Position numbers and translations under genes: made by a program | Assembly (NCBI RefSeq): GCF_036964665.1 | Contig: NZ_JBAMDA010000001.1 | Coordinates: 1,550,001 to 1,614,000, forward strand | From: Nitrobacter sp. NHB1 | Lineage (GTDB): Bacteria; Pseudomonadota; Alphaproteobacteria; Rhizobiales; Xanthobacteraceae | Length of the DNA: 64,000 nt | Direction: 5' to 3' | In this document: positions 11,499 through 30,966 of the stretch, piece by piece | Position numbering within the stretch: the first letter of the stretch is position 1 | Layout of the letters: each line of letters opens with the position of its first letter | Notes under the pieces: generated by a model | Databases searched by the model: none | Seen by the model: only the letters and a program-made list of their open reading frames with translations | Told to the model about the DNA's origin: nothing

Positions 11499-12719
11499 TC
11501 AGGCGAGCGCCTGCTTCAGATCGAAAGCGGAATCGGCGGCCTGGTCCGGCGCGATCGAACCGTTTACCGCGAGAATGCGACGGCCGAAGACGTGATCCGA
11601 CCCGCGATTGACGGATTCGACTCCGATCAGGCGGCCGGCCTTGTAACAGAACGCCGAGAACGATCCCTGCCCGGCGTCGCCCCGCACCACGACCTGATCG
11701 TAACCGGTGGTCAGACCCGCGATCTGCAGCTTGTCCGCGCCCTGATCGCTCCAGAACCACGGCAGGCCGTCATAGCTCCTTGTATCGCCGGTCAATCGCG
11801 CCGCCACGCAGCGAGCCTGATCCGTCGCGTTCTGCACGGATTCGAGTCGCAGCGGCGCACCGAAGCGCACACTCGCAAACAGCGCGCAGTCACCGATCGC
11901 TGAAATGTCCGGGTCGGCGGTGAGCAGGTGCTCATCGACGATAATGCCGGAGGCCACCGGCAGATCCGCCTCTGCTGCCAGTTCGACGTTGGGCACGACG
12001 CCGACGCCGACCACCACAAGATCGGCGGCGATTGGCCTGCCGTCGCTCAAGGTGACGCCGGTAACGTGGCCCTCGTTGCTCGTGATGCTCGTTGCCTGCA
12101 CGCCGAAATGCAGACGAATCCCCGCCTCGATGTGGCGGCGCTGAAAGAAAGCCGAAATCTCCTGCGTGACCGCGCGCGCCATGACGCGCGGCGCCAGTTC
12201 CACCACATCGACTTCGAGACCCTTCGCCCGCGCGGTCGCCGCGAATTCGAGCCCGATGAAGCCGGCACCGACGACCACCACCCGCCCCCCTGACACGAAG
12301 CGTTGCCGCAGCGCCTCGCTTTCATCGAGCGTACGCAGATACAGAACGTCATCGAGCCCCGCGTTGGGGATATCGAGCAGGCGATTGCGTGCGCCGGTCG
12401 CCAGCACAAGGTGCTTGTAAGCCCGGGACGCGCCGGAGGCACAGACCAGCTCGCGGGCGCTGCGATCGATGGCCACGGCGCGATCCGCGATCAGGTCGAC
12501 GTGCTGGTCGTGATAGAATTTCTCCGGCCTGAACATCACCGAATCCGGGCGACCACCACCTTTCAGATAGGCTTTCGAGAGCGGCGGCCGCTGATAGGGC
12601 AGATGCGGCTCGTCATTGATGAGGCTGACGGGTCCGCCGTACCCCGCCTGACGCAGCGACACCGCGAGCTGAAAGCCCGCATGGCCCGCGCCGACGATCA
12701 GGACTGGTTGATCTGCCAT
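11499..12719 (-). CDS. NAD(P)/FAD-dependent ferredoxin reductase-like oxidoreductase
   Basis: There are two dinucleotide motifs: LIVGAGHAGFQLAVSLRQAGY at the N-terminus for FAD and VVVVGAGFIGLEFAATARAKG near residue 145 for NAD(P)H. The LPYQRPPLSKAYL segment and the late FAD motif ADPDISAIGDCALF are also present. Together with the 406-residue length and the C-terminal reductase domain this matches rhodocoxin / putidaredoxin / BphA4-type reductases, which pass electrons from NAD(P)H to a [2Fe-2S] ferredoxin serving a P450 or dioxygenase. No ferredoxin or oxygenase gene is next to it, so the partner is unknown. Confidence 0.88.
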   Translation of the reverse strand: MADQPVLIVGAGHAGFQLAVSLRQAGYGGPVSLINDEPHLPYQRPPLSKAYLKGGGRPDSVMFRPEKFYHDQHVDLIADRAVAIDRSARELVCASGASRAYKHLVLATGARNRLLDIPNAGLDDVLYLRTLDESEALRQRFVSGGRVVVVGAGFIGLEFAATARAKGLEVDVVELAPRVMARAVTQEISAFFQRRHIEAGIRLHFGVQATSITSNEGHVTGVTLSDGRPIAADLVVVGVGVVPNVELAAEADLPVASGIIVDEHLLTADPDISAIGDCALFASVRFGAPLRLESVQNATDQARCVAARLTGDTRSYDGLPWFWSDQGADKLQIAGLTTGYDQVVVRGDAGQGSFSAFCYKAGRLIGVESVNRGSDHVFGRRILAVNGSIAPDQAADSAFDLKQALA

Positions 12720-12792: not shown

Positions 12793-12897
12793 TATAGCGT
12801 TTTCGAGCGAAGTGGATACCGGTTCGCGTGAAGAAAACGCGTCACATCAAAATCATAGAGCCCCGCTTCTGATTCCATCAGAAGCGGAAAGGCTCTA
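12793..12897 (+). repeat. Dispersed repeat copy 3, with second hairpin module
   Basis: The first module is internally shortened: gcgttttcgagcgaag joins directly to tggataccggttcgcgtgaa, with the cctcggg hairpin missing. It is followed by a second module, agagccccgcttctgattcc-atcagaagcggaaaggctct, an 11-bp inverted repeat with a 3-nt loop inside an outer agagcc/ggctct stem. The same second module follows copy 4 at 48757. No gene is seen between 12720 and 13032. Confidence 0.8.
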
Positions 12898-16699: not shown

Positions 16700-18487
16700 T
16701 CAAAGCGTTTTCAAATACTCGAGAAGAGCTTTCTTGTCGGCATCCGGCAGACTCGTCCCAAATTCGTGGCCGCAACGACTATTGCCAGAGTTCAGATCGT
16801 CACAACCGGTCGTCTCGCGAACATGATCGGACTGAGCCTGATTTGAAGCAATACCGACGTTATCCAGGTCATAGTCGGGACCGATCGCAAAACGCTGCTG
16901 CCGCTGGCTTGCAGGCTTAAGCAATTCGGCAAGGCTTGCGACCGAGCCATTGTGCAGGTACGGCGCGGCCGCCCAAATGCCGTGGAGAACCCGGGATTCA
17001 TAGGCGCCCTTCGGGGGCGTCGGGCTTTCAGCATTCATGTCAAGTCGATGCCGGGTTTCGAGAGTTGCAGCGGCGTTAGGAAACCTGAATGCGCCCGGCA
17101 AGTCCTGCAAAACGGAGGGGAGTCGATTGGCATCGACGGGCTCCGAAGTGCTCGCCGCCGCACCGGGTTCGATGGCTTTGCCAAACGTCCGGTGTGACGA
17201 ACTGGTCGCGAAGCTCACGACATGCTCTCCGATCGTGCCTATCACCGAGGTCGATAAGATATTGAACGCGAGGTCTGTTTCCTTCAAAGGCTTCGTCGCG
17301 AACGGAATGTAAGCACCTTTCAGGACACCCGATTTAGCGGTCCATCCCAGGATATCGTATTCACGTGTGTCCGTCCCCACATTCTGAATTGGCGTTGCCC
17401 AAGTCTTCTGAAATGGAAAACGGACTTTTCCGGCTTTCTCACCATGGCATTCCTGACATCCGCCGCTGGCAGTCGGCCGTTCAAAGATCGCCTTGCCCTT
17501 GGCCGCCAATGCGGTATCGACGGACCACGGCCATTTCGGCGGCCCAATCTTCTTCGTTAACTCTTCGAGCTTTTGCAGCCCGTCGAAATTCGCTGAATTA
17601 TTGTTCAAGAAGTCGATAAACAGGCCATCGCGCGTGGGCTGATAGTTACCGAACACGCCCATCACTTCGCCGACATTCCGGGCCAACCCGAGGATATCGC
17701 TCCCGTTGTCCGCGAAGCCCGGCCACTGTGTCTTGTCCTGCTTGGGCGCATTCCAGAGAAAAGGATAACGTACCGGTGCATCGGCTCTGTGAATGTTCTC
17801 CGGAATCAGAAATGACGGCTCTGGGCCGATGCCCAACCCGGTCACGCGATTGAAGATCATGCCAACTGCATCGAGGCGGCCCAGTCCCCATCCGGGATTG
17901 GGAAGCGATCGATCGATAATGGTGTGATAGCGAACGTACCATGCGTCAACGTCGCTCCGTAGCGCGGCGACTTTATCACTGTTAGGCTTAGCGGTCTGGA
18001 GAACAGACGCCGCAAATGCCTGAAACGCAGCATCGTCGGACGTTGCGCGCGCCACCGCCTTATCGAGGTCACCCAGAAACGCTTGGAAATCGACGAGGGC
18101 CGGTCCTCCATCGATACGATATTGCCGATCCCCGACCTTGATCTGGCGGGTGTGACAGGCGGAGCAGGTCATCCCAACGACCTTCGCACCGGTCGGGCCA
18201 GTTGCGTGAAATCCTAATGGAAGCCCGATCGAACCTTCAGGGCCGGGCAAATATCCGTATCGCGCCAAACCGTCGGAAAGAAAGGGAGTGCCATCAGCTC
18301 GCTTTAACGCTTCGAGCCACGCAAAAGGGATGAGTTGCGAGCCTTGATCGCGTGTGTAGAAATCGGTGCGACTGGACGCATCCCAAGCTGGGCCCTGATC
18401 GACGAAAACGGGACCAGACTCATCCGCCAGAGATGGTGCGACAACTGAAAAATTCAGGAGGACAAAGGCCAGAATAAGGGTTCGCAT
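16700..18487 (-). CDS. Exported di-heme c-type cytochrome, RoxA / di-heme peroxidase-like
   Basis: A signal peptide (MRTLILAFVLLNFSVVAPSLA) is followed by two heme sites, CSACH at 108-112 and CQECH at 344-348. The protein is 595 residues, much longer than the 300-350 of the classical di-heme peroxidases. It is close to the size of the rubber oxygenase RoxA/RoxB and their uncharacterised relatives, and the spacing of about 236 residues between hemes also fits them. It acts in the periplasm or outside the cell. Function could be oxidative cleavage of a polymer or isoprenoid, or peroxidase activity. The gene is alone, with no electron-transfer partner beside it. Confidence 0.82.
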   Translation of the reverse strand: MRTLILAFVLLNFSVVAPSLADESGPVFVDQGPAWDASSRTDFYTRDQGSQLIPFAWLEALKRADGTPFLSDGLARYGYLPGPEGSIGLPLGFHATGPTGAKVVGMTCSACHTRQIKVGDRQYRIDGGPALVDFQAFLGDLDKAVARATSDDAAFQAFAASVLQTAKPNSDKVAALRSDVDAWYVRYHTIIDRSLPNPGWGLGRLDAVGMIFNRVTGLGIGPEPSFLIPENIHRADAPVRYPFLWNAPKQDKTQWPGFADNGSDILGLARNVGEVMGVFGNYQPTRDGLFIDFLNNNSANFDGLQKLEELTKKIGPPKWPWSVDTALAAKGKAIFERPTASGGCQECHGEKAGKVRFPFQKTWATPIQNVGTDTREYDILGWTAKSGVLKGAYIPFATKPLKETDLAFNILSTSVIGTIGEHVVSFATSSSHRTFGKAIEPGAAASTSEPVDANRLPSVLQDLPGAFRFPNAAATLETRHRLDMNAESPTPPKGAYESRVLHGIWAAAPYLHNGSVASLAELLKPASQRQQRFAIGPDYDLDNVGIASNQAQSDHVRETTGCDDLNSGNSRCGHEFGTSLPDADKKALLEYLKTL

Positions 18488-19219
18488 ATTTGCTCCTGAG
18501 GCACGCGTTTATGGCTGGTATGACTGGCGTATTGTCAACGCACTGCGGCACGAGACGGATATCGCTGAACGCGCCGCGCAAATATTTCGCACGGATAATA
18601 TTTTCTAGCAAGAGTTGTGATAAACGGAAAATTCTAGTTTAAGCGAATCCAAAGTTGATGAAAATCAGTTGCTCGCGGGGCTCGGTCGGTCGCCTTCGCA
18701 CACGGTCCGAGCAGCGCAGGCAACTCGGAATCGGGAAGACCGGCACTCCCGCTGCAAGTCCGGAAGTTGTGCGCTCTACTGCTCACGCAAGGACGCGCGG
18801 AGGCGACGATGCGATAAGGCTGGCGACCGATGCTATGTATGATGGCTGCTTTGGTCTGTCTGTCATCAGTGCCCACGAGACAAATTGAGGGACTTCACGG
18901 AGGGCGAATTTCTGGTTCATCGTAGCCGCAGGGAGCGAACATGAAACAGAGATCCGGACCCGGGCAAAGTGCCGGCAGAATCCATCTGGACGGACAAAGC
19001 CTCATCGTACTCATGACGGTTGCTCTGGCACTCCGCCAGTCATTGGATGGCTCGTCGGAAATGACATCCAAATCCCTGCGGGAGGGCAATCATCCGATGC
19101 CTTGACGAGGATCGATGCCTGCGATCGTAGCGATCGATACCCACCGCCTATTTGGCATGGTCCGATGCCTTCGCAGCCGTCGATTTTGACCATAACCGTG
19201 GTCTTGCGCCGCCCCGCGC
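18488..19219. other. Long intergenic region ahead of the WD40 cluster
   Basis: Some 730 bases lie between the cytochrome gene start and the palindrome at 19220. They contain one weak small ORF (18941-19105, listed separately) and no RNA gene or repeat that I can recognise. The first hundred bases are relatively AT-rich and probably hold the cytochrome promoter. Confidence 0.4.
18941..19105 (+). CDS. Weak candidate small ORF, 54 aa
   Basis: The ATG at 18941 has CAGGGAG seven bases upstream and runs 54 codons. The product begins MKQRSGPGQSAGRIHLDG and contains a short hydrophobic patch (LIVLMTVALALRQ). There is no family match that I know and the composition is unremarkable, so it may be chance. 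It would sit 225 bases ahead of the WD40 gene. Confidence 0.2.
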   Translation: MKQRSGPGQSAGRIHLDGQSLIVLMTVALALRQSLDGSSEMTSKSLREGNHPMP

Positions 19220-19237
19220 CACTATCGAATGATAGTG
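19220..19237. promoter_or_regulatory. Palindromic operator, site 1 (shared with the luxR gene)
   Basis: CACTATC-GAAT-GATAGTG is a perfect 7-bp inverted repeat about 110 bases before the WD40 start. The same 18-mer, with one loop base changed, lies in front of the LuxR-type regulator at 25354-25371. The size and symmetry suit a GerE/LuxR-type HTH dimer. Confidence 0.7.
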
Positions 19238-19330
19238 TCGGGCGCCGATCGCGCCCGCTAGCGTGCCCTTTCCAGGGGCTGACGCCTTGATCGCCCCCAT
19301 ATGGGCAGTTGCGTGCGACGGGAGGTTGGT

Positions 19331-20848
19331 TTGGCGACGTTCCTGAAACGAATACCGATCCTGTTGGGGTTCTGGCTGGTCACGATCTCCATGATGAGCG
19401 GAGCATTCGCCGCCGACTTCTACGCATCGCGCGTGTTCAGTGTGGATCAGTCCGTCTACGCGGTTCGCTTCAGTCCTGCCGGCCACCACGTCGCGCTTGC
19501 CACCGACGACGGCACGGTCATCTTCGACACGTCGGATGGCAAGCAGGTGGCCAAATTGAAGGGCAAGGCGTCCTCCGTGGTCTGGAGCCCGGACGGCTCG
19601 ATGCTAATGGTGGGGACCGAGGAGGCGCTGCGCTTCTGGAGCACCGCCGATTATTCGAAGGAATTCGCGGCGATCCCCGTGAACGCGCAGACGCTCATCA
19701 TTGGCCTTCCCCGCGAGCCGTTCAGCCCGGACGGCAAGTCCATCGTCGTGCTCAGGCAAGATGACACGGCGGCGGTCTGGCAGATCGAAGGTTCGCGTGA
19801 AGTCGCCATCCTGGATGGGCATTCCGCTCCGTTGACCGATGCCAGCTTCAGTCCCGATGGCAGACGTATCGCCACCGCCGCGGAAGACAAGACCGTGGTT
19901 ATGTGGGACGCCGCCACTGGCAAGAAGATCGCCAGGCTGGAAGGGCATGAGAAGGCCATCGACAAGGTCAGCTTCAGTCCGGATGGAACGCACATCCTGA
20001 CGATAGGACGGGATCAGACCGTGCGGGTCTGGGATGCCGCGAGCGGGCGCGCGATCGCGACGTTGCGGCACCATGCCGACGTTGAATCGGCGGCGTTCGA
20101 CCATGAGGGCAAGCGCATCGTGACCGGCGCGGACGACGGCGTTGCGCGTGTCTTCAATGCTGCCAGCGGCGCGGAGATCGCTACCCTGAAGGAAGACGGC
20201 GTCGAAAAGGTGCTGTCGGCGGGTTTCAGCCCGGACGGCGCTCGCATCGCCACCGGCTCGTCGGACCAGTATGTGCGTATCTGGAACGCCGGCAGCGGCA
20301 AGCAGATCGTCAAGCTGAACGGTCTGTCCGAAGGCTACGGCGTCGGCTTCACCGATGATGCAACGGTCGTGGCGAGACCGCACGGCGCGTTGGGTGTCCT
20401 CTATACCGTGCGACAGTCGCAGGCTGATGTCCGACTTGCGGGCACCGTGGCCGGCATGTGGGCCTTTGGGCCGTCCGATGACGTCGACGCCACTCCGGAT
20501 GTCATGCATCTCATCTGCTCGACCAGTCCCTACATCATCCACCCGGACGGGCTCGTCGAGTATCTTGCCGGCGGCGAAGACGAACTGCTTGAACCCCGCC
20601 AGTTCATGCGCTGCAAGGCCGACATGTCATGCGATGTGTTCGAAGGCGCGCCGCATTCGCTGGCGGCCGATCCTTTGGACAAGGCGACGTTCAAGCTGGC
20701 CAACGGCAAGGGCACAATGTGCATGGCCAGCGACTCCGGCAACTGCCAGACCCTTCGCAAATGCACGAAGCTGGAATGGGGCGACGCGGCGCGCGCCAGC
20801 GGTCATGCCGAGCAATGGGACAAGCTGTATGCGGCCTCTGCCAACTGA
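19331..20848 (+). CDS. Exported WD40-repeat protein
   Basis: A TTG at 19331, with GGGAGG five bases upstream, gives an N-terminus that is at once a signal peptide (ATFLKRIPILLGFWLVTIS, then AFA). The ATG at 19301 would add ten odd residues. At least six WD40 blades follow, recognisable by FSPDG and by endings such as VVMWDAATGKKIARLEGH, VRVWDAASG and VRIWNAGSG. The last roughly 150 residues are a separate Cys-containing domain (CSTSPYIIHPDG ... CKADMSCDVF ... MCMASDSGNCQTLRKC) that I do not recognise. It is probably a periplasmic scaffold. It is first of seven same-strand genes and overlaps the next by 20 bases. Confidence 0.85.
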   Translation: MATFLKRIPILLGFWLVTISMMSGAFAADFYASRVFSVDQSVYAVRFSPAGHHVALATDDGTVIFDTSDGKQVAKLKGKASSVVWSPDGSMLMVGTEEALRFWSTADYSKEFAAIPVNAQTLIIGLPREPFSPDGKSIVVLRQDDTAAVWQIEGSREVAILDGHSAPLTDASFSPDGRRIATAAEDKTVVMWDAATGKKIARLEGHEKAIDKVSFSPDGTHILTIGRDQTVRVWDAASGRAIATLRHHADVESAAFDHEGKRIVTGADDGVARVFNAASGAEIATLKEDGVEKVLSAGFSPDGARIATGSSDQYVRIWNAGSGKQIVKLNGLSEGYGVGFTDDATVVARPHGALGVLYTVRQSQADVRLAGTVAGMWAFGPSDDVDATPDVMHLICSTSPYIIHPDGLVEYLAGGEDELLEPRQFMRCKADMSCDVFEGAPHSLAADPLDKATFKLANGKGTMCMASDSGNCQTLRKCTKLEWGDAARASGHAEQWDKLYAASAN

Positions 20849-21185
20849 AATACGCAAATTGATCGTGTTTGTCGTCACAATCGCGATTGCCGCCTACGCG
20901 ATACATGGCCTCATCGCCGATGATCTGGTCATGCCCTACCATTGGAGAACTCCAGTCAAACATTGGGGGTCTCTCCATTTACGCGGAATGTGGGCAATCG
21001 GCGGTTCGGTTTGCCTCCTGCTTGGCGCCTCCGGTCTCGCCATTCTGGCTTACGGCGTCATCGGCACGAAACCGGGCGCAGATCCCAGAGCGAGATTCTA
21101 CAGAAATCTGGCCACTCCATTGATCTGCATCGGCGCTGTGTTCTTCCTCGGAATATCATGGTTCGCTCAGTGGTTTGTTCGATGA
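20829..21185 (+). CDS. Hypothetical membrane protein, 118 aa
   Basis: The start ATG lies inside the last codons of the WD40 gene, with GGGACAAG upstream, so the two are probably coupled. The product has three hydrophobic helices: IRKLIVFVVTIAIAAYAIHGL, then GGSVCLLLGASGLAILAYGVI and NLATPLICIGAVFFLGISWF. The loops are short and the N-terminus is cytoplasmic by charge. No family is known to me. Its position between the WD40 protein and an exported protein suggests a membrane part of the same apparatus. Confidence 0.65.
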   Translation: MRPLPTEIRKLIVFVVTIAIAAYAIHGLIADDLVMPYHWRTPVKHWGSLHLRGMWAIGGSVCLLLGASGLAILAYGVIGTKPGADPRARFYRNLATPLICIGAVFFLGISWFAQWFVR

Positions 21186-21256
21186 GGATCATCAGCGTGG
21201 CCGCGCCGATCGGTGGAGTAAACAGTTCGCCTCGGCAAGGAGGAATCAGAGGTGCA

Positions 21257-21862
21257 ATGCGGATAGCGGCTGCGATTCTCTTTTCGACGATGGTCATCAC
21301 CGCTGCTTCGGCCGATTCGGCCAGCGCAGCGCAAAACCGCTTTACCTCCATCGCTAACAAAGATTGCAAGTTTGCGCCGATCGGCCACGAACCGGGCGAG
21401 GAGGACGATCAGCTCAAGACCTGCCCCGGGCTGGGGGGAGCAAAAGTGTTGGTCAACGCGTTTGAAACACGACTGCGGATTGGTTTCGTATGGCCGAAGG
21501 GCGGTCGACCCGGAAAACCGATTTGGGTAGTCGAAGCTTGGAGCGCGGATTTCGTGATCGACTGGCGCGGCGCGAAAGGACCGAAAGACTTTGTTCCCCA
21601 TGCTGCAATCGTGCGAATGAAGTTCGCTAGGAATGGCGGGCCAGAGGTCGGCGATCAGGTGCTCGCCGTCATCCGCGTCGCGCATGACTCCGCTTGCCTG
21701 ATGGGCGCTGTCGATATCGGAGCAAACAGAAACGCTAACGAGCTGGCGCATGCGCTTGCCGATGCTGCGCCGAACTTTGCTTGCAACAAGGATAAGCCCG
21801 TTATCGACGGAGTGAAAACGCCCGCAGCGGAGGAAATCGCGCGAGGTATCGCAGAACAATGA
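21257..21862 (+). CDS. Hypothetical exported protein, 201 aa
   Basis: The ATG at 21257 starts a signal peptide (MRIAAAILFSTMVITAASA) after GGAGG and AGAGG. The mature part contains four cysteines that could pair (DCKFAP, KTCPGLGG, SACLMGAV, NFACNKDK). It is beta-rich around VEAWSADFVIDW and HAAIVRMKFA. A helix near the end (NANELAHALADAAPNFAC) resembles the end of small periplasmic ligand-binding proteins, but I cannot name the family. The stop overlaps the next start (ATGA), marking an operon. Confidence 0.7.
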   Translation: MRIAAAILFSTMVITAASADSASAAQNRFTSIANKDCKFAPIGHEPGEEDDQLKTCPGLGGAKVLVNAFETRLRIGFVWPKGGRPGKPIWVVEAWSADFVIDWRGAKGPKDFVPHAAIVRMKFARNGGPEVGDQVLAVIRVAHDSACLMGAVDIGANRNANELAHALADAAPNFACNKDKPVIDGVKTPAAEEIARGIAEQ

Positions 21863-22599
21863 GTGCGTGGTCCACCATTGGCCGCAACCGAATGCTTCTC
21901 GGCCTGGGACTGCTCCTCGGCATTGGTGCTCCAAGCGCCGTTGCGGCAGGCTCATGCACGCCGGAGAACAAAACCATCGTCTGCCGCGGCGAAGGCCGAA
22001 CGATCCGGGTGATCGCCGAAACAACCTCACCATCGGCGCGCTACGCCATCGGATGGATCGTGCCCGCCGTGGCAGCCAAGGAATTTGAACGCAACCCCGA
22101 GGACGGATCGCTGGTGCTTCCGGGCGGCGAGCCGGAAAATGTTGTTGTTCGTCTGCGTGACGGCGCTGTCATTGTGACAACACAGAGCAAGCATTTCGGC
22201 GATCACGCACGATACAATCACCGGGAAATCAGCGCGATCTGGTCGGCCGATGAAAAACTGCTTCTCGTCTGGTCCAACGATAAATGGGAAACGCTCGCGT
22301 CCGAAGCCTTCCACCTCAATGGCCGCGGTGAGCTGACGGGCCGGGACGACGTGCTAGCGCTGGCGCGGCATATCGGCAAGGAACACCTGTCTCGTCGGCA
22401 AAATATCGACGAGGTCGATCTGTACGAGCCACTCATTCTCAAGGAGCGATTGAGCGGCAAGGGTCGGGTGGAAGTCGTAACCGCGTTAGTAATAGCGGGA
22501 TCGGAGAACGGCTTCACCTTCACGATAACCCTGAAGTCCCCTGGCAAGCCGGGGGCGCAGCCTTTGCGTGTCCTTCATGTCGGGACGCCCAGAAAATGA
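21859..22599 (+). CDS. Hypothetical exported protein, 246 aa
   Basis: A signal peptide (RMLLGLGLLLGIGAPSAVAA) is followed by a two-Cys N-terminal segment (SCTPENKTIVCRGEGRT) and alternating strands such as YAIGWIVPA, GEPENVVVRLRDGAVIVTT, ISAIWSADEKLLLVWSND and GFTFTITLKS. This hints at a beta-propeller or beta-sandwich, and the IWSADEKLLLVW string is like a degenerate WD/propeller blade. It overlaps its neighbour upstream by four bases, and its own stop overlaps a possible ATG of the next gene. No family recognised. Confidence 0.7.
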   Translation: MSAWSTIGRNRMLLGLGLLLGIGAPSAVAAGSCTPENKTIVCRGEGRTIRVIAETTSPSARYAIGWIVPAVAAKEFERNPEDGSLVLPGGEPENVVVRLRDGAVIVTTQSKHFGDHARYNHREISAIWSADEKLLLVWSNDKWETLASEAFHLNGRGELTGRDDVLALARHIGKEHLSRRQNIDEVDLYEPLILKERLSGKGRVEVVTALVIAGSENGFTFTITLKSPGKPGAQPLRVLHVGTPRK

Positions 22600-22625
22600 C
22601 TTCGTCTCTGACGAGGAGAAATCGC

Positions 22626-23036
22626 ATGAATATGCCCGTGGCATTGGCATCGGCTTTGATTCTTGCATCCTTGACAACATCGCCGGCCTTGGCGTCCGGC
22701 GATTGCGTCTACTTCGGTTATAACAAGGGTTCGCCTGATGTTTTCAAGTTCGTGAAGTGGGAGTTCGGCAAGCGCGAGGGGCGCTGGCTGAAGGTCAACC
22801 TGACACTGCACAACAACCTGAAACAAACGGTCAAATGGTTTCAATTGACCATGCTGGCAGACGGGCATTCGATCAGCCTCAACACGACGCAAACGCTCCC
22901 CGCTGAGAGCGATACGCTGATAACCGCCGAGTACGAGATGTCGAATGGAACTGCCGCCGAATTTCAGAAGCTTACGCCATTGATCTGTGTTCGCTCGACA
23001 GAAGATGAGAAAGGCGACAAGCAAAATTACGAGTGA
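22626..23036 (+). CDS. Hypothetical exported protein, 136 aa
   Basis: I take the ATG at 22626, eight bases after GAGGAG, rather than an ATG at 22596 overlapping the previous stop. Either start leads into a signal peptide (PVALASALILASLTTSPALASG). The mature protein has a beta-sandwich feel (WLKVNLTLHNNLKQTVKWFQLTMLADG), like small periplasmic immunoglobulin-like proteins that describe interactions of newly made chains. Two Cys (GDCVYFG, LICVRS) may form a disulfide. Function unknown; same operon direction. Confidence 0.68.
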   Translation: MNMPVALASALILASLTTSPALASGDCVYFGYNKGSPDVFKFVKWEFGKREGRWLKVNLTLHNNLKQTVKWFQLTMLADGHSISLNTTQTLPAESDTLITAEYEMSNGTAAEFQKLTPLICVRSTEDEKGDKQNYE

Positions 23037-23090
23037 GAGTCTCGTGCCGGCCCGGAGCGGGCCAAGCCCCATACCGTAGGAAAACCGACA

Positions 23091-23504
23091 ATGAACAGCC
23101 TGGTCCGAATTATTCTCGTTGCCATTTTATTGAGCCCGGCGGCCACTGTCGCTCAGGCATCGAAGAAAGCCGCCGTGCCGCACGCCATGCAGACGGAGTT
23201 TGAAAGATTCATCGCAAAGTTTCGAGCGGCTCTGAAAGCCGACGATTCAGCCGCCGTCGCCGGCATGACCAAGCTGCCTTTCATGGAGGACAAGACTTAC
23301 TCCGATGCCGCGCAATTTCGTGCGAAGGCCTATCCAGAGTTCTTCACCAAGAATAATCGCGCCTGCATCCAGCGCAAGAAAGCCGTCTATGATCGCGATG
23401 AGGAGAAGAACGACAACTACCATATCTCCTGCTACGAGAATATCTTCACCTTCACCAGGACCAAGGCGGGATTTCTGTTCACGGACGTCAGCGTGAATGA
23501 TTAG
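23091..23504 (+). CDS. Hypothetical exported protein, 137 aa
   Basis: A signal peptide (SLVRIILVAILLSPAATVAQA) precedes a compact alpha+beta domain. There are helices MQTEFERFIAKFRAALKADD and YSDAAQFRAKAYPEFFTKN, then strands around KAVYDRDEEKNDNYHISCYENIFTFTRTKAGFLFTDVSV. This order of helices then a bent sheet is like the NTF2/SnoaL fold, so a small ligand-binding role is possible. Two cysteines (ACIQ, SCYE) could pair. Fifth gene after the WD40 protein in the same direction. Confidence 0.68.
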   Translation: MNSLVRIILVAILLSPAATVAQASKKAAVPHAMQTEFERFIAKFRAALKADDSAAVAGMTKLPFMEDKTYSDAAQFRAKAYPEFFTKNNRACIQRKKAVYDRDEEKNDNYHISCYENIFTFTRTKAGFLFTDVSVND

Positions 23505-23544
23505 CCGGGCAACTGCTTTAGCGCTTCGATAGCTGGCTTGGCCA

Positions 23545-24180
23545 ATGATCGATAACATAGAGCCAAGTTCTGACCGAAACATCCTCGGAACTGCGCCGTG
23601 GCTCCGCGCGCTTCGTGCGTTTTCACTGGCGGCACGGCTCGGCGCCAGCCTGTTCCTGGGCACCATGATCGGGGTGGCAGGCGGCGCTGTCTTTCCGGCG
23701 CTCACTCATATCGCCGCGCCGTTGATCTGTAGCGGCAAGTTGGAAACGGCGTCGTCCCCATACTCCTATAAGCCGGGGCAATATGGCGTCACTCGCGAAC
23801 TCTTTTGCATCAGCGATGACGGATCGCGGCAACCGATGACCGCAAGAGGCCTGTTCTTTTCCAGCCTTATCTACGCCGTCGCACTGTTCGCCCTGTGGCC
23901 ACTGCTCATGTTGCCGTTCCGGTACTTGCTGTCACGGGGCGCACGAAGGGCTGGCTCCTACGTCGAGGACAAGCTGGGTGGGATCGCCTCATCCGAGACC
24001 ATAACATCCGCTTGGGCACGCCACATAAAGGGAGTTCGAATCGAGACCGTTCGGCAGCCGGCTCCCGCCGCCGACACGATTGAGGATCGTCTCCGTGAAC
24101 TTGCCCGATTGAGGGACGTCGGCGCGATTACACGGGAGGACTACGAGACCCGGAAGCGAGAAATACTCTCTGAACTGTAG
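23545..24180 (+). CDS. Membrane protein with C-terminal SHOCT domain
   Basis: There are two membrane helices, LGASLFLGTMIGVAGGAVFPAL near residue 35 and LIYAVALFALWPLLMLPFRYLL near 115. A cysteine-bearing external loop (PLICSGKLET ... RELFCISDDG) lies between them. The C-terminal 30 residues (DTIEDRLRELARLRDVGAITREDYETRKREILSEL) are a textbook SHOCT oligomerisation motif, facing the cytoplasm. SHOCT modules mediate self-association and are common at the ends of membrane or nuclease proteins. It is the last gene of the cluster and converges on the luxR gene, 47 bases away. Confidence 0.78.
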   Translation: MIDNIEPSSDRNILGTAPWLRALRAFSLAARLGASLFLGTMIGVAGGAVFPALTHIAAPLICSGKLETASSPYSYKPGQYGVTRELFCISDDGSRQPMTARGLFFSSLIYAVALFALWPLLMLPFRYLLSRGARRAGSYVEDKLGGIASSETITSAWARHIKGVRIETVRQPAPAADTIEDRLRELARLRDVGAITREDYETRKREILSEL

Positions 24181-24227
24181 CCGCCGCTGCTTACGCCAAT
24201 TCAGGTTCTGGAACCTGTGACCTCGCT

Positions 24228-25313
24228 TCAATGTACGGCCGAAAGGCACAGCGCGACAAGCTGGGCCTGCGAGCCCGTAGCGGTCTTGCTGAAGATGCGG
24301 TTCAGGTGGCCGCGGACGTTGCCAAGAGAAATTCCCAGTTTGGCCGCGATTTCCGCCGGATCTTCTCCTGCCACCAGCAGCACGATGATGTCGGTCTCGC
24401 GTGGCGTCAGCCCGAAGGCGCGGCACAATCCGGATATGCCGGCCGGAACTGGCCTGTCGGGATCGTCCATGAACAAAATCGTCGCCGTCGCCCCGAAGGT
24501 CGAGATTGCCCGATCTCCCATGGCGGGCATCCGTACGGCGCGGACCGCCAATGGCCGTGACGTCTTGCGACGGATAAGCGTGATCGCGCCCGAACTCTCG
24601 TCGATGATCCTGGCCAGTCGCTGGTTTTCGATGTCGCCGGCGCCCCAAAGTATCGCAGGCTGCGTCAGCAGTTTTCCGGAATGAGCGAGAACCTGCTCCC
24701 CCGCCTGGTTAGCGTGAAGAACCTGCCGGTGCGCGTCGAGGAAAATCACGGCCGTCGATAGCTCGTCGAGCGTGGCCTCTAGTGTCGTGACCCTATCCTC
24801 AAGCAAGCGTATGTGCCGCTTCAGGCTCAAAGCCGAAGTGAGCGCCGGCAGGAGGTGCGTCAACACCGCTTTCTCGGCGTCCGAGAACGGCCGCCCTGAC
24901 CGGCTTCGGCAGGCGGCGACAAAGCCGCCGGATGTCGTGCATGCGACCGCCGCGTGATGCCCGCCCATTGGTCTGATCGCACCCTCGAACACCGCCAGCC
25001 GACACAGGACCGCCAACGGCACCGCCTCATCCTGCGCAACCATCCTGCCCTTGGGCAGCAGGCGCGAAAGCACCGCCACATCGGCCGGATAGGCGGCCAG
25101 CGCTTTTATGCTTTCTTCGGCGACGCCACTGCCCCAGGCGAGCGGCGTGACGCGCGGATAAGGGTCGTCCATATCTTGATCTTGGGGGAGAATAGCGACG
25201 AGATGATCGGCGCGCACCGTGTCGACGATCGCCGCAAGCCCCTCGTCCCAGGCTGCCGCGTCCAGTACCCCCTGCATGACAAGGCGTCCGATCCTGGAGA
25301 CGGCATTGCCCAT
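24228..25313 (-). CDS. LuxR-type (GerE HTH) transcriptional regulator
   Basis: The C-terminal 60 residues (302-361) are a GerE helix-turn-helix: LTPRETDIIVLLVAGEDPAEI followed by AAKLGISLGNVRGHLNRIFSKT. The N-terminal 290 residues have no autoinducer or receiver domain but look PAS-like around STAVIFLDAHRQVLHANQAGEQVL, a shape seen in stand-alone LuxR regulators of this group. The start at 25313 (GCGAGGAGATGCCCT ahead) is chosen over ATG-like codons further upstream. A perfect palindrome lies 40-60 bases in front and also heads the WD40 cluster, so it probably regulates itself and that cluster. The signal sensed is unknown. Confidence 0.88.
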   Translation of the reverse strand: MGNAVSRIGRLVMQGVLDAAAWDEGLAAIVDTVRADHLVAILPQDQDMDDPYPRVTPLAWGSGVAEESIKALAAYPADVAVLSRLLPKGRMVAQDEAVPLAVLCRLAVFEGAIRPMGGHHAAVACTTSGGFVAACRSRSGRPFSDAEKAVLTHLLPALTSALSLKRHIRLLEDRVTTLEATLDELSTAVIFLDAHRQVLHANQAGEQVLAHSGKLLTQPAILWGAGDIENQRLARIIDESSGAITLIRRKTSRPLAVRAVRMPAMGDRAISTFGATATILFMDDPDRPVPAGISGLCRAFGLTPRETDIIVLLVAGEDPAEIAAKLGISLGNVRGHLNRIFSKTATGSQAQLVALCLSAVH

Positions 25314-25352
25314 AGGGCATCTCCTCGCGCGCCGCCCTCTCAAACCGGGCGG

Positions 25353-25372
25353 CCACTATCGGATGATAGTGG
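25353..25372. promoter_or_regulatory. Palindromic operator, site 2, upstream of luxR
   Basis: CCACTATC-GGAT-GATAGTGG is a perfect 8-bp inverted repeat. It matches site 1 at 19220-19237 in 17 of 18 shared bases. It lies between the luxR gene and a decayed exported-protein gene on the other strand, so it may once have served both. Confidence 0.7.
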
Positions 25373-25493: not shown

Positions 25494-25780
25494 ATGCGGC
25501 TCCCGTTTCTTGCCACGGCTACATTAGCCCTTCTTGTTGCGACCACAGCCGAGGCGCAGACCCTCACGGGTGAGGCCGCCCGAAAATCACCGCAAGCCGA
25601 TGCTTTCCTGGCTTACGAGCACGCGCTCATCGAGGGGGGCCTCAAGGCAGCCATCCCTTAATGACGTCGGAGAAGCTGGCTGACCTGAAGGGCATGGCCG
25701 AAATTTTCGGCGAGGACGGTTTCAACCAGTTCCTCGACCGCATGCGCGGCGGCGCCCAGGATGAGGCGCGGCGAAAGCAG
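25494..25780 (+). pseudogene. Decayed exported-protein gene, frameshifted and truncated by an IS remnant
   Basis: A start at 25494 opens a signal peptide (MRLPFLATATLALLVATTAEA) and a helical protein that stops at 25661 (GGLKAAIP). In another frame the text goes straight on as MTSEKLADLKGMAEIFGEDG, then FNQFLDRMRGGAQDEARRK. Restoring one base would join them into one protein, so I read this as one gene with a one-base deletion. The homology to a transposase begins at once after it, so the 3' end was lost to the insertion. The product would have been another small periplasmic protein, like those of the cluster at 19-24 kb. Confidence 0.6.
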
Positions 25781-26252
25781 CCTGGAGGCTTGGTCCCACC
25801 ATGTGCGCTTCCGACGTCACGGCCACGCTTGACCAGGCGCTGGCGGCATCGGGCCTTGATCACATCACCGTTGCGCACCGGCCGAAGCTTCTCAGCGACA
25901 ACGGCGCTTCTTATGTTGCAGGCGATCTGGTCGACTGGCTCGAAGGCAAGGGTTGCAGCACGTCCGCGGGGCGCCGTATCACCCGCAAACCCAGGGAAAG
26001 ATCGAGCGCTGGCACCAGACCCTGAAGAACCGCATTCTGCTCGACAACTACTATCTGCCCGGAGATCTCGAACGGCAGATCGGCGCCTTCGTCGAGCACT
26101 ACAATCACGTCCGCTATCATGAGAGCATCGAAAACGTCACACCGGCCGACGTCTATTTTGGAAGAGCCGAGACGATCCTCGCAGAACGCAGGCGCATCAA
26201 ACTTGCCACCATCGCAAACCGACGCTTGCAGCACCAGCTGCGGGCCGCTTAA
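25781..26252 (+). mobile_element. IS3-family transposase remnant (C-terminal integrase core, frameshifted), copy A
   Basis: The frame around 25783-25950 reads W-R-L-G-P-T-M-C-A-S-D-V-T-A-T-L-D and then KLLSDNGASYVAGDLVDWLEGKG, part of the rve integrase core with the second catalytic Asp. Near 25950 one base is lost and the other frame continues HVRGAPYHPQTQGKIERWHQ, which has the catalytic Glu, through to a stop at 26252. The N-terminal half and the first ORF are missing, so it is dead. A second remnant with nearly the same text lies at 28133. Confidence 0.9.
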
Positions 26253-28596: not shown

Positions 28597-30966
28597 TCAT
28601 GGTTTCTTCTTGCCGGGATCCTTATCCTTGGGCAACAACTTGTCGATCAGCGCCTGCACCCATTTGGGGATGGCGACGATAGGCGGCGCGTGCACTTGCA
28701 CGTTGTCGGTCCCTACATCCCTGCGGACCTTGTCCTCCAAGGTTTTCGCGTCCTGTTCGACCTTCTTGCGGTCGACAACCTTGCCGTTGAAATCGACCAG
28801 CTCCACATATTCATCTATTGTTGCCGCGTCGCCGGCCTGCAGGGCAGCGTAGATCCTGGCAGTGTCTTTCTTGCTCAAAGTCTTCGTCCAGTTCGGCTTC
28901 CAGCGCGCGAACAGCGTCCGGAGCGATAGCTTTGAAAGCTCCTGTAGATAGCCAGGCCCGCGGGCCTTCTTTTTCGGGTTGGCCTCGATCATGTCTATGA
29001 GCCGCTCGATACGGCGGTTGGTGCGCTCCAACGACTTCAGAGTTCCGGGCGCCAGCTCGGTGTGCTTCAGTGCCTCCTGATGGGATTTCTGGGTCGCTTC
29101 CCGTTGCTCTGCAGAAGCGGTCTTCGGCGCTCGAGAGAACGCGACGGAGGTCCTGAGGTCGATCGGCCGGTTGGTCTCGAAGGCCGCCTTGTCCAGGTCG
29201 CTGACTATGGCTGGCGCGACGCTCGCGAAGAGCGGATGGGTCGCCACATAGATCTCGTCGCCTCCAAGCATGAACTGGACACTTTCGTCAAACGTGCCCA
29301 ACTTACCGTCGGCCTCGGCGCCAAAAACCTCCCGCGCCACCTTGAATCCACTCGCGGGGCTCTTGGCAAGTTGATCGTAGTGTTTCTTGAAGGTGGCCAC
29401 GACGATATCATAGGTTAGCCTGCGGCGCACATCGATCGGGTCGGTGGACCGGAAGGTCTCCTGCATGAGGTCTTGGTCACTGTAACGGTGATAGCCGACC
29501 TCGCGGTTGGAATTTTCATAGATCATCATCAGCTCAACGCCCATGTCGCGGATGTCCATGCTGAAAAAGATTCGCTGCTCGTAGTCGGACACCTTGGCGT
29601 AGAACTGGTATTCGCAGGAAGTGCCGATCACTGCGATCGGATCTGCCTGGCGCACGTCGTGCGTCAGTACATACTGAAGATTATCCCAATCGACGGTGGT
29701 CCCAGGCTTACCCAGCTCCAGGAAGCCTTTGAGCGCCTTGTCGTGATAAGTTTTCAGCTTGTTGTCGAATTCCGCTGACTCGAACGACTTCACGAAATCA
29801 ATCATGTTCAGGACAACGAGCCAGAGCTCCATGATGTCCCTCTGCAGAGGAAAGGAAGAAGTCACGTTCGGGGATGGAGCTCTCTCCAACTTCTTTTTGC
29901 GCGCGTCGCGGATGACGTCGGGGTTGCCCCAATAGAGATTCTTGTACTCCATGAAGGCGAAGGTCCAGACCGTGTTCACGTAGATGGAGTTCATCTCCAC
30001 CGTGACGCCAGGAAGCGTGCCCTTCAGCACCATCTGCTTGATCTTCTCAGCGAGGTTGGATGCGCGGATATAGACCTTCCAATCATACGCCTTACCGCGC
30101 CGATCATCCTTCTTGGAATCGAGACTGACCCCCGCCTGGGCCGCCACCTGTTGGACCGCCCGGCTCGGGATGGTATTGCCCTTGGCTGCATAGCGCGCCA
30201 GCGCTGCGCCCTTCATCGCTTCCGTTACCAGCAGATAGACGTTGGCGAGCGTCGAACCATCCTGAGGAGGTAACGTCCGAAGACCAAAGAAAATGTCAAA
30301 CCGATAGCCCTTCTTACCCAACTTCTTGGTGAGCTTCTTGATCTCCGTCTTCTGCTTATCCGTCGTGGAGTCATCAGCCGCGGCTTGCTTGAGGATATCG
30401 AGCAGCGCAAGCCTAAGAGCTTCGTCAAGCAAAGCCAGCTTCTTGATGAAATCTTTGCGTGACTTCTCGTAAGTGATGATGAAGGCGGTCTTGTAAGTCT
30501 GGGCCGCGACGGAGAAACCGTCTTGAACGGTGAAAAGGTTGTTGATCGCTTCATAGCGTTTCTGCTGATACTGCGCGTTCCACCACTGACCGATGACGTT
30601 GTCATTGAGATCCTTGACGCCGGTATTGTCCCGCGCCTCTCCAGGGAAGAGCAAAATATAGAGGCTGATCGTCTTGCTGGGCGCCGTGTGTTGCTTCAAT
30701 GCGGTCTGGAAGACGTTCATCTGCCAATACAGAAAGAGCGTCGGCAGCTGCATGACAAGCCAGGCTTTAAGTGCGAACTGGTCGTCCTGATCCGGCGGAT
30801 TGCGGTCAGTCAATAGCTTGCGAAGCGCGTCCGAGCGAGGCCACACCACCGCCAAGCGATCGCTGTCGGCGCTACCCCACGACGCCGGATCGAAATCAGC
30901 TGGGTCGTCATCGAACATCAGCGCGGTGTCGGCGCTAGGACCCGTTGATTCGAAGCCGTCACCCAT
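28597..30966 (-). CDS. Large unknown protein, 789 aa, with a possible GGDEF/Cas10-like palm domain
   Basis: No signal peptide or membrane helix; probably cytoplasmic. The first 400 residues are mostly helical, with several hydrophobic helices (FALKAWLVMQLPTLFLYWQM) and Lys-rich stretches. From residue 460 the order is: strand RIFFSMDIRDMGVELMMI (Asp471, Asp474), helix LTYDIVVATFKKHYDQL, hairpin ESVQFMLGGDEIYVAT (GGDE at 568-571), helix LFASVAPAIVSDLDKAAF, strand DLRTSVAFSRAP, helix. That is the order and acidic-residue layout of a palm nucleotidyl cyclase; the match is by eye only. The C-terminus is basic. GAGGAG lies seven bases before the ATG. It follows the 1048-residue gene by 27 bases in one operon. 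Confidence 0.8.
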   Translation of the reverse strand: MGDGFESTGPSADTALMFDDDPADFDPASWGSADSDRLAVVWPRSDALRKLLTDRNPPDQDDQFALKAWLVMQLPTLFLYWQMNVFQTALKQHTAPSKTISLYILLFPGEARDNTGVKDLNDNVIGQWWNAQYQQKRYEAINNLFTVQDGFSVAAQTYKTAFIITYEKSRKDFIKKLALLDEALRLALLDILKQAAADDSTTDKQKTEIKKLTKKLGKKGYRFDIFFGLRTLPPQDGSTLANVYLLVTEAMKGAALARYAAKGNTIPSRAVQQVAAQAGVSLDSKKDDRRGKAYDWKVYIRASNLAEKIKQMVLKGTLPGVTVEMNSIYVNTVWTFAFMEYKNLYWGNPDVIRDARKKKLERAPSPNVTSSFPLQRDIMELWLVVLNMIDFVKSFESAEFDNKLKTYHDKALKGFLELGKPGTTVDWDNLQYVLTHDVRQADPIAVIGTSCEYQFYAKVSDYEQRIFFSMDIRDMGVELMMIYENSNREVGYHRYSDQDLMQETFRSTDPIDVRRRLTYDIVVATFKKHYDQLAKSPASGFKVAREVFGAEADGKLGTFDESVQFMLGGDEIYVATHPLFASVAPAIVSDLDKAAFETNRPIDLRTSVAFSRAPKTASAEQREATQKSHQEALKHTELAPGTLKSLERTNRRIERLIDMIEANPKKKARGPGYLQELSKLSLRTLFARWKPNWTKTLSKKDTARIYAALQAGDAATIDEYVELVDFNGKVVDRKKVEQDAKTLEDKVRRDVGTDNVQVHAPPIVAIPKWVQALIDKLLPKDKDPGKKKP

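Follow-up and report, generated by a model that had tools for sequence, protein, structure and literature searches.

SmoR of Stenotrophomonas maltophilia is described as a LuxR solo that has a palindromic box of its own (PMC4432800), so the kind of system is already known. For most LuxR-type regulators that lack a synthase, no operator or target is known. In this work we analyse a 64,000-nucleotide (nt) stretch of Nitrobacter sp. NHB1 (contig NZ_JBAMDA010000001.1, positions 1,550,001 to 1,614,000; hereafter the window), in which an 18-bp inverted repeat, referred to as the dyad, is found once before a run of seven genes headed by one for an exported WD40-repeat protein, and once beyond a gene for a LuxR-type regulator (luxR). 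Comparison with related genomes makes it probable that the dyad serves as operator for the LuxR-type protein encoded next to it, which would act locally and likely activate the WD40 run. Among the titles and abstract openings in the literature searched, no paper describes this operator or regulator. Such a circuit would be a second LuxR-type one for Nitrobacter, where regulation work in the literature searched has centred on quorum sensing by acyl-homoserine lactones (AHLs).

The first copy, CACTATC-GAAT-GATAGTG (dyad 1; 19220..19237, + strand), precedes the WD40 gene, whose likely TTG start is 93 nt away. The second, CACTATC-GGAT-GATAGTG (dyad 2; 25354..25371, given without strand), has the ATG of luxR 40 nt away on the - strand and another ATG, at 25494 on the + strand, 122 nt away. 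Both 18-mers are exact and differ by a single loop base, and the likeness of their flanks ends after a base or two. The host genome (3,794,501 bases in 4 contigs) contains these two perfect matches, none with one mismatch and four with two; a reversed control pattern gave 15 matches at ≤2 mismatches. Although the window contains 12 perfect dyads of the same build, with seven-base arms around a four-base loop (7-4-7), recurring arms are seen in the CACTATC dyad only. The pair is not a product of chance. The initial annotation of this DNA had placed the two 18-mers at exactly these positions and had called a chance match very unlikely; a first-order Markov model with the window's composition indeed predicts 0.0019 perfect matches per genome versus the two found. 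The genome-wide scatter that would have spoken against a link to the neighbouring genes is not seen, as the only sites with zero or one mismatch are these two, both at this locus.

A close luxR was found in two of 248 family genomes, namely the host and Nitrobacter sp. 62-13 (returned by the genome scan as NZ_MKRN01000010.1), the latter with 90% identity; the next best candidate reaches 32%. The same two genomes carry the dyad sites. Outside Nitrobacter, the search of related genomes that had been suggested with the initial annotation found an exact CACTATC dyad in one of 296 family genomes, below the three genomes obtained with the reversed control. Neither this exact site (G243) nor a one-mismatch site in another genome (G002) has relatives of the cluster nearby, and both are taken as chance matches. 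By BLASTN, window positions 19214-21236, 21953-25334 and 25496-25780 align to Nitrobacter sp. 62-13, with the first block opening 6 bp before dyad 1; for the rest of window 10001-40000, no further alignment was found in the 20 kb compared on the contig of the relative. Dyad 1 is letter-identical in the relative (C10:2359-2376), and so is the hexamer TAGCGT 21 nt past it. The ratio of nonsynonymous to synonymous substitution rates (dN/dS) between the two genomes is 0.17 for luxR and 0.14-0.33 across all aligned cluster genes, luxR included. Homologues of the protein encoded at 22596 that lie outside the cluster (in G605, G547 and contig C42 of Nitrobacter sp. 62-13) have no detectable cluster relatives beside them, a scan of viral contigs for CACTATCGRATGATAGTG gave no match, and a plasmid scan returned only matches of <60% identity.

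These distributions bear on which protein reads the dyad. Many regulator families bind dyads of 16-20 bp, and the two sites might be operators of a regulator encoded elsewhere, for example of MarR, TetR or GntR type, with luxR as a bystander or a target; the persistence of luxR without its dyad in Nitrobacter sp. 62-13 would fit this. We nonetheless regard it as rather improbable, given that the genome has no more than two sites and both lie beside luxR, that the exact site is confined to genomes with this luxR plus one further genome, a frequency comparable to that of the reversed control, and that LuxR homologues show the same anatomy at their own loci. Among the shared-block proteins scanned with Pfam, the LuxR-type protein is the sole one with a DNA-binding domain. 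It is most likely the reader of the dyad, as supported indirectly by the homologue loci, the spacing to the putative -10 hexamer in one clade, and dyad letters that go along with the recognition helix.

Distant homologues of the regulator (∼30% identity) are not accompanied by the cluster, but their loci show 7-4-7 dyads written in other letters, with the consensus CTCACCC-N4-GGGTGAG. These precede the regulator's own gene, a gene run that includes it, or genes for exported VWA proteins. Five of the six homologues with the best bit scores have such a dyad (≤2 mismatches) directly upstream of their own gene, the one without being G105; among the next 15 by bit score there is none, the nearest (G034) standing at 3 mismatches. 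In Bradyrhizobium-like genomes with an orthologue, the dyad occurs in 14 of 16, nine times before luxR and five times before a run leading into it, and is missing from the luxR locus of the remaining two (G676, G265). An exact CTCACYC-N4-GRGTGAG is found at five sites in 16 chosen genomes, all five at loci of luxR homologues; across 391 family genomes, there are 48 exact sites in 45 genomes, while the reversed control occurs in 7 genomes. Twelve distinct dyad sequences carry 1.67 and 2.00 bits per position in the arms, 0.64 in the loop, and 0.43 and 0.73 in the flanks, the arm values being somewhat inflated by the choice of rows at ≤2 mismatches, of which L144, L148 and L154 were found by the motif itself.

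A parallel comes from G016, a genome of another genus, which repeats the window pattern in other letters: one locus has the dyad before luxR and before two genes for exported VWA-domain proteins, 90 nt from the ATG in one of the two. The VWA genes (L038, 5780-11463), nearly identical and 4.1 kb apart, each have the dyad CTCACCC-ATAT-GAGTGAG in front and adjoin the LuxR-type gene and a toxin-antitoxin-like pair (11740-12497, named by eye). A different arrangement is seen in five Bradyrhizobium-like genomes (L096-L100, at ∼250-300 in gene direction), where the dyad lies 155-163 nt before an open reading frame (ORF) of 276-278 aa. This membrane-protein-like ORF precedes luxR, and TAGC[AC]T follows 21 nt downstream of the dyad. 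The letters are GTCACCC-GGTY-GGGTGAC in four of the five, and the left arm is CTCACCC in the other.

Seven paired bases around a 4-nt loop, together with an integrase-like sequence near dyad 2, could also denote an RNA hairpin or a short mobile repeat. This is highly improbable: neither dyad resembles a terminator, there are only two copies per genome, the flanks of the window copies are unmatched beyond a base or two, a CACTACC variant in Nitrobacter sp. 62-13 breaks a pair without compensation, and in the homologue dyads the right arm is constant whereas the left one is not. Nor do the letters point convincingly to NrdR, which we consider only because of the CACTAT-type half-sites. An Escherichia coli nrdAB probe contains CACTATC and ends in ATATAGTG, and NrdR boxes are 16 bp long and occur two by two, with a distance of 15-16 bp, ahead of operons for ribonucleotide reductase (PMC12176259). 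The centre spacing of our dyad is 4 bp longer than that of an NrdR box, no further box is present within 70 bp, the window has no CACTAT-N2-ATAGTG within 2 mismatches, and the cluster genes scanned are not reductases, so that an NrdR box or a variant of it is scarcely credible here.

At three positions of the recognition helix, aligned with NarL 188, 189 and 192, the window protein and its orthologue in Nitrobacter sp. 62-13 both have R, G and N. By comparison, 19 homologues read [RK], T and R, and a CTCACCC box (≤2 mismatches) lies close upstream of 11 of these and ∼1.2 kb upstream of another 5. Among homologues with other helix residues, only 1 of 36 has a box match, and this is an unrelated match in the window itself. 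All 11 homologues with a nearby box have in common helix residues that are missing from the window protein. The homologues in this count were not chosen by motif, and 13 whose helix was not read were excluded, including one (L023) with a two-mismatch box. Fisher's test for 11/19 versus 1/36 gives 6e-6, a value that is overstated because the sequences are related and fall mainly into two clades. As a tentative extension, for which the balance of evidence is somewhat unfavourable, the window protein may belong to an undescribed GAF-PAS-GerE family in this bacterial family whose members use private operators (7-4-7 dyad, 21 nt, TANNNT) with letters that track the recognition helix, [RK]TR pairing with CTCACCC and RGN with CACTATC, and form closed local circuits with exported proteins. 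If true, this would provide a natural series for reading a recognition code, and the helix-letter link, should it hold, would make a small natural data set on DNA recognition by GerE domains. For the whole homologue set, the sequence reveals the operator, the probable targets and the promoter spacing, so that short DNA probes allow a direct test of binding and activation.

The position of dyad 1 suggests how it might work. The hexamer TAGCGT (19259..19264, + strand), which begins 21 nt past dyad 1, is a putative -10 element. The WD40 promoters of both Nitrobacter genomes have a TANNNT hexamer at this distance, and so do 12 of the 14 Bradyrhizobium-like loci, the other two having 22 nt. If TAGCGT is indeed the -10 hexamer, dyad 1 would be centred near -42, a class II-like position; LuxR likewise sits near -42 on the lux promoter. 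A consensus scan found no sigma-70-like promoter pair on the WD40 side. We infer that a regulator dimer would bind dyad 1 and activate the seven-gene run from a promoter at this position. Because the 21-nt spacing, shared with the Bradyrhizobium-like clade, would put the dyad near -42, activation at the WD40 promoter appears likelier than repression there; elsewhere the protein may repress.

A reading in which the regulator binds the dyads and represses, dyad 2 mediating autoregulation of either sign, is unlikely, though it has several points in its favour. At G016 and G108, a TATAAT-like hexamer follows only 11-12 nt past the dyad, which would then overlap the -35 region; the 40 nt between dyad 2 and the luxR ATG resemble the 53 nt (G016) and 47 nt (G108) at these loci. 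SmoR, too, has been proposed to act from a box of this kind by blocking its operon (PMC4432800). The clade-typical 21-nt spacing at the WD40 promoter argues against repression, as does the lack in the window of a TANNNT that would fit the luxR direction.

Several observations weigh against a locally acting regulator with its own operators. The stretch with dyad 2 before luxR is absent from Nitrobacter sp. 62-13, whose luxR is intact. No TANNNT lies 9-28 nt past dyad 2 in the luxR direction, no fitting one is found at an additional dyad-headed gene of that relative, and the spacing at G016, G108 and G146 is 11-14 or 20 nt. Eight of the 19 [RK]TR homologues have no close box, and three (L035, L091, L101) have none at all; the helix-box count ignores phylogenetic dependence, and in the tree, whose deep nodes are weak, the box carriers and the window protein do not form one group. 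Of the 48 exact CTCACYC sites, 33 were examined, and only 7 of these have a LuxR homologue within 1.5 kb, so that the CTCACCC dyad is rejected as a mark exclusive to the regulator; one further site lies 5.5 kb from a LuxR homologue, in a luxR locus. Lastly, paired 7-g-7 dyads (arms ≥6/7, pairs within 2 mismatches) in 23 loci show no excess at g=4, with 109 pairs versus 91-118 at other spacings. The spacing alone is thereby ruled out as a signature; G+C-rich coding palindromes swamp this count.

On the luxR side of the locus, our picture departs from the initial annotation. Seen from the cluster, dyad 2 comes after luxR, in the intergenic region between this gene and a divergent, broken + strand gene, the remnant of an exported-protein gene (25494..25661) that meets an early stop and is followed by integrase-like (rve_3) sequence. 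On the side of this gene, TAGTCT follows dyad 2 at 23 nt. As a second operator, dyad 2 would be better placed for the broken gene, a possible second target, than for luxR, over which it may still exert some control. The consensus scan places one sigma-70-like pair upstream of luxR and next to dyad 2 (25516-25487, - strand). Self-control of luxR is doubtful, since no -10 hexamer fits that direction and the relative keeps luxR intact without dyad 2. The relative has, in turn, a one-mismatch dyad, CACTACC-GGAT-GATAGTG (L037, 1617-1634), that heads another exported-protein gene, of 157 aa (L037, 1744-2217), starting 109 nt past it; this gene is in no other of 9 Nitrobacter genomes, host included. 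In these sequences, with dyad 2 missing and a dyad before an extra gene in the relative, the dyad accompanies exported-protein genes more steadily than it does luxR. The annotation had held that the palindrome heads both the cluster and the regulator, that the regulator controls itself as well as the cluster, and that the regulon consists of the seven genes between the sites. The association of palindrome, regulator and cluster is upheld by comparison, and so are the cluster-side position and the confinement to the locus. What we would give up are autoregulation, the assignment of dyad 2 to luxR in a region shared with 25494, and the exact extent of the regulon, the latter because the site in the relative heads a gene absent from the host genome.

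The seven + strand genes downstream of dyad 1, whose starts and signal peptides were assigned by eye, are separated by gaps of at most ∼70 nt and in several cases overlap, which suggests that they form one operon. They encode the exported WD40-repeat protein (19331..20848; 86% identical in Nitrobacter sp. 62-13), a small membrane protein (20829..21185), an exported protein without a Pfam match (21257..21862) within a stretch left unaligned to the relative by BLASTN, three exported proteins without a Pfam or NCBIfam match (21859..22599; 22596..23036, 86% identical in the relative; 23091..23504), and a membrane protein with a SHOCT domain (23545..24180). The luxR gene (24228..25313, - strand) is convergent to this run.

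Directly before the cluster, on the other strand, lies a gene for a RoxA-like cytochrome c (16700-18487), which is not found within the first 20 kb of the contig of Nitrobacter sp. 62-13. On the far side, the broken 25494 gene, whose start is missing in the relative together with the neighbouring dyad 2, runs into an integrase-core (rve_3) sequence at 25953-26252. Further along, 28597-30966 encodes a 789-aa protein without a Pfam match at E 0.01. The window also contains a long interspersed repeat with two kinds of palindrome (at 430, 11417, 48780 and 50678, and at 12864 and 48851). The first kind, CCTCGGG-N5-CCCGAGG, is present in four copies, and the second, CGCTTCTGAT-TCC-ATCAGAAGCG, twice, with a variant in the relative (L076, near 5267).

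The regulator itself, of 361 aa, has a C-terminal GerE helix-turn-helix domain (PF00196, 37.2 bits versus a cut-off of 23.5) with fold matches to the C-terminal domains of NarL, VraR and DosR. Profiles and a structure model (mean predicted local distance difference test score 79.1, predicted template modelling score 0.57) together divide it into a GAF- or AHL-like fold (residues 1-170), a PAS domain (187-290) and the GerE domain (295-361). In the comparison with quorum-sensing LuxR proteins, the GAF proteins 3ci6 and 3k2n score within ∼2 Z units (11.9 each). The PAS assignment draws on a profile match of residues ∼161-230 to a sensor-kinase PAS domain and on the alignment of model residues 187-360 to VqmA; Pfam finds PAS_4 in a homologue (L010) and not in the window protein. 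Pfam lists no autoinducer-binding family for the window regulator at E up to 0.01 and no receiver domain (PF00072), and no luxI is among the ten window proteins scanned, other ORFs being outside that scan. With its domains modelled in this way, the protein is best called a one-component GAF-PAS-GerE regulator.

This domain order sets the window protein apart from several known systems. Unlike NarL/FixJ response regulators, it has no receiver domain, and unlike the quorum-sensing regulators LuxR, LasR and CepR2, which act on a lux box, it has no autoinducer-domain match and has a PAS domain inserted. The one-component PAS-GerE proteins VqmA and EL222 are closer in build, relative to which the window protein has a further GAF-like domain at its N terminus. 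It also differs from an autoregulated LuxR solo in that the operator before its own gene is not conserved in its sole close orthologue. With SmoR (PMC4432800), the system shares a LuxR-type protein without a synthase, a conserved palindrome before its own operon, and only one similar box elsewhere in the SmoR genome. SmoR is a member of the HchA-associated LuxR family and an AHL binder, whereas the window protein carries a PAS domain in addition, shows no sequence match to an AHL domain, and has exported proteins as its predicted targets.

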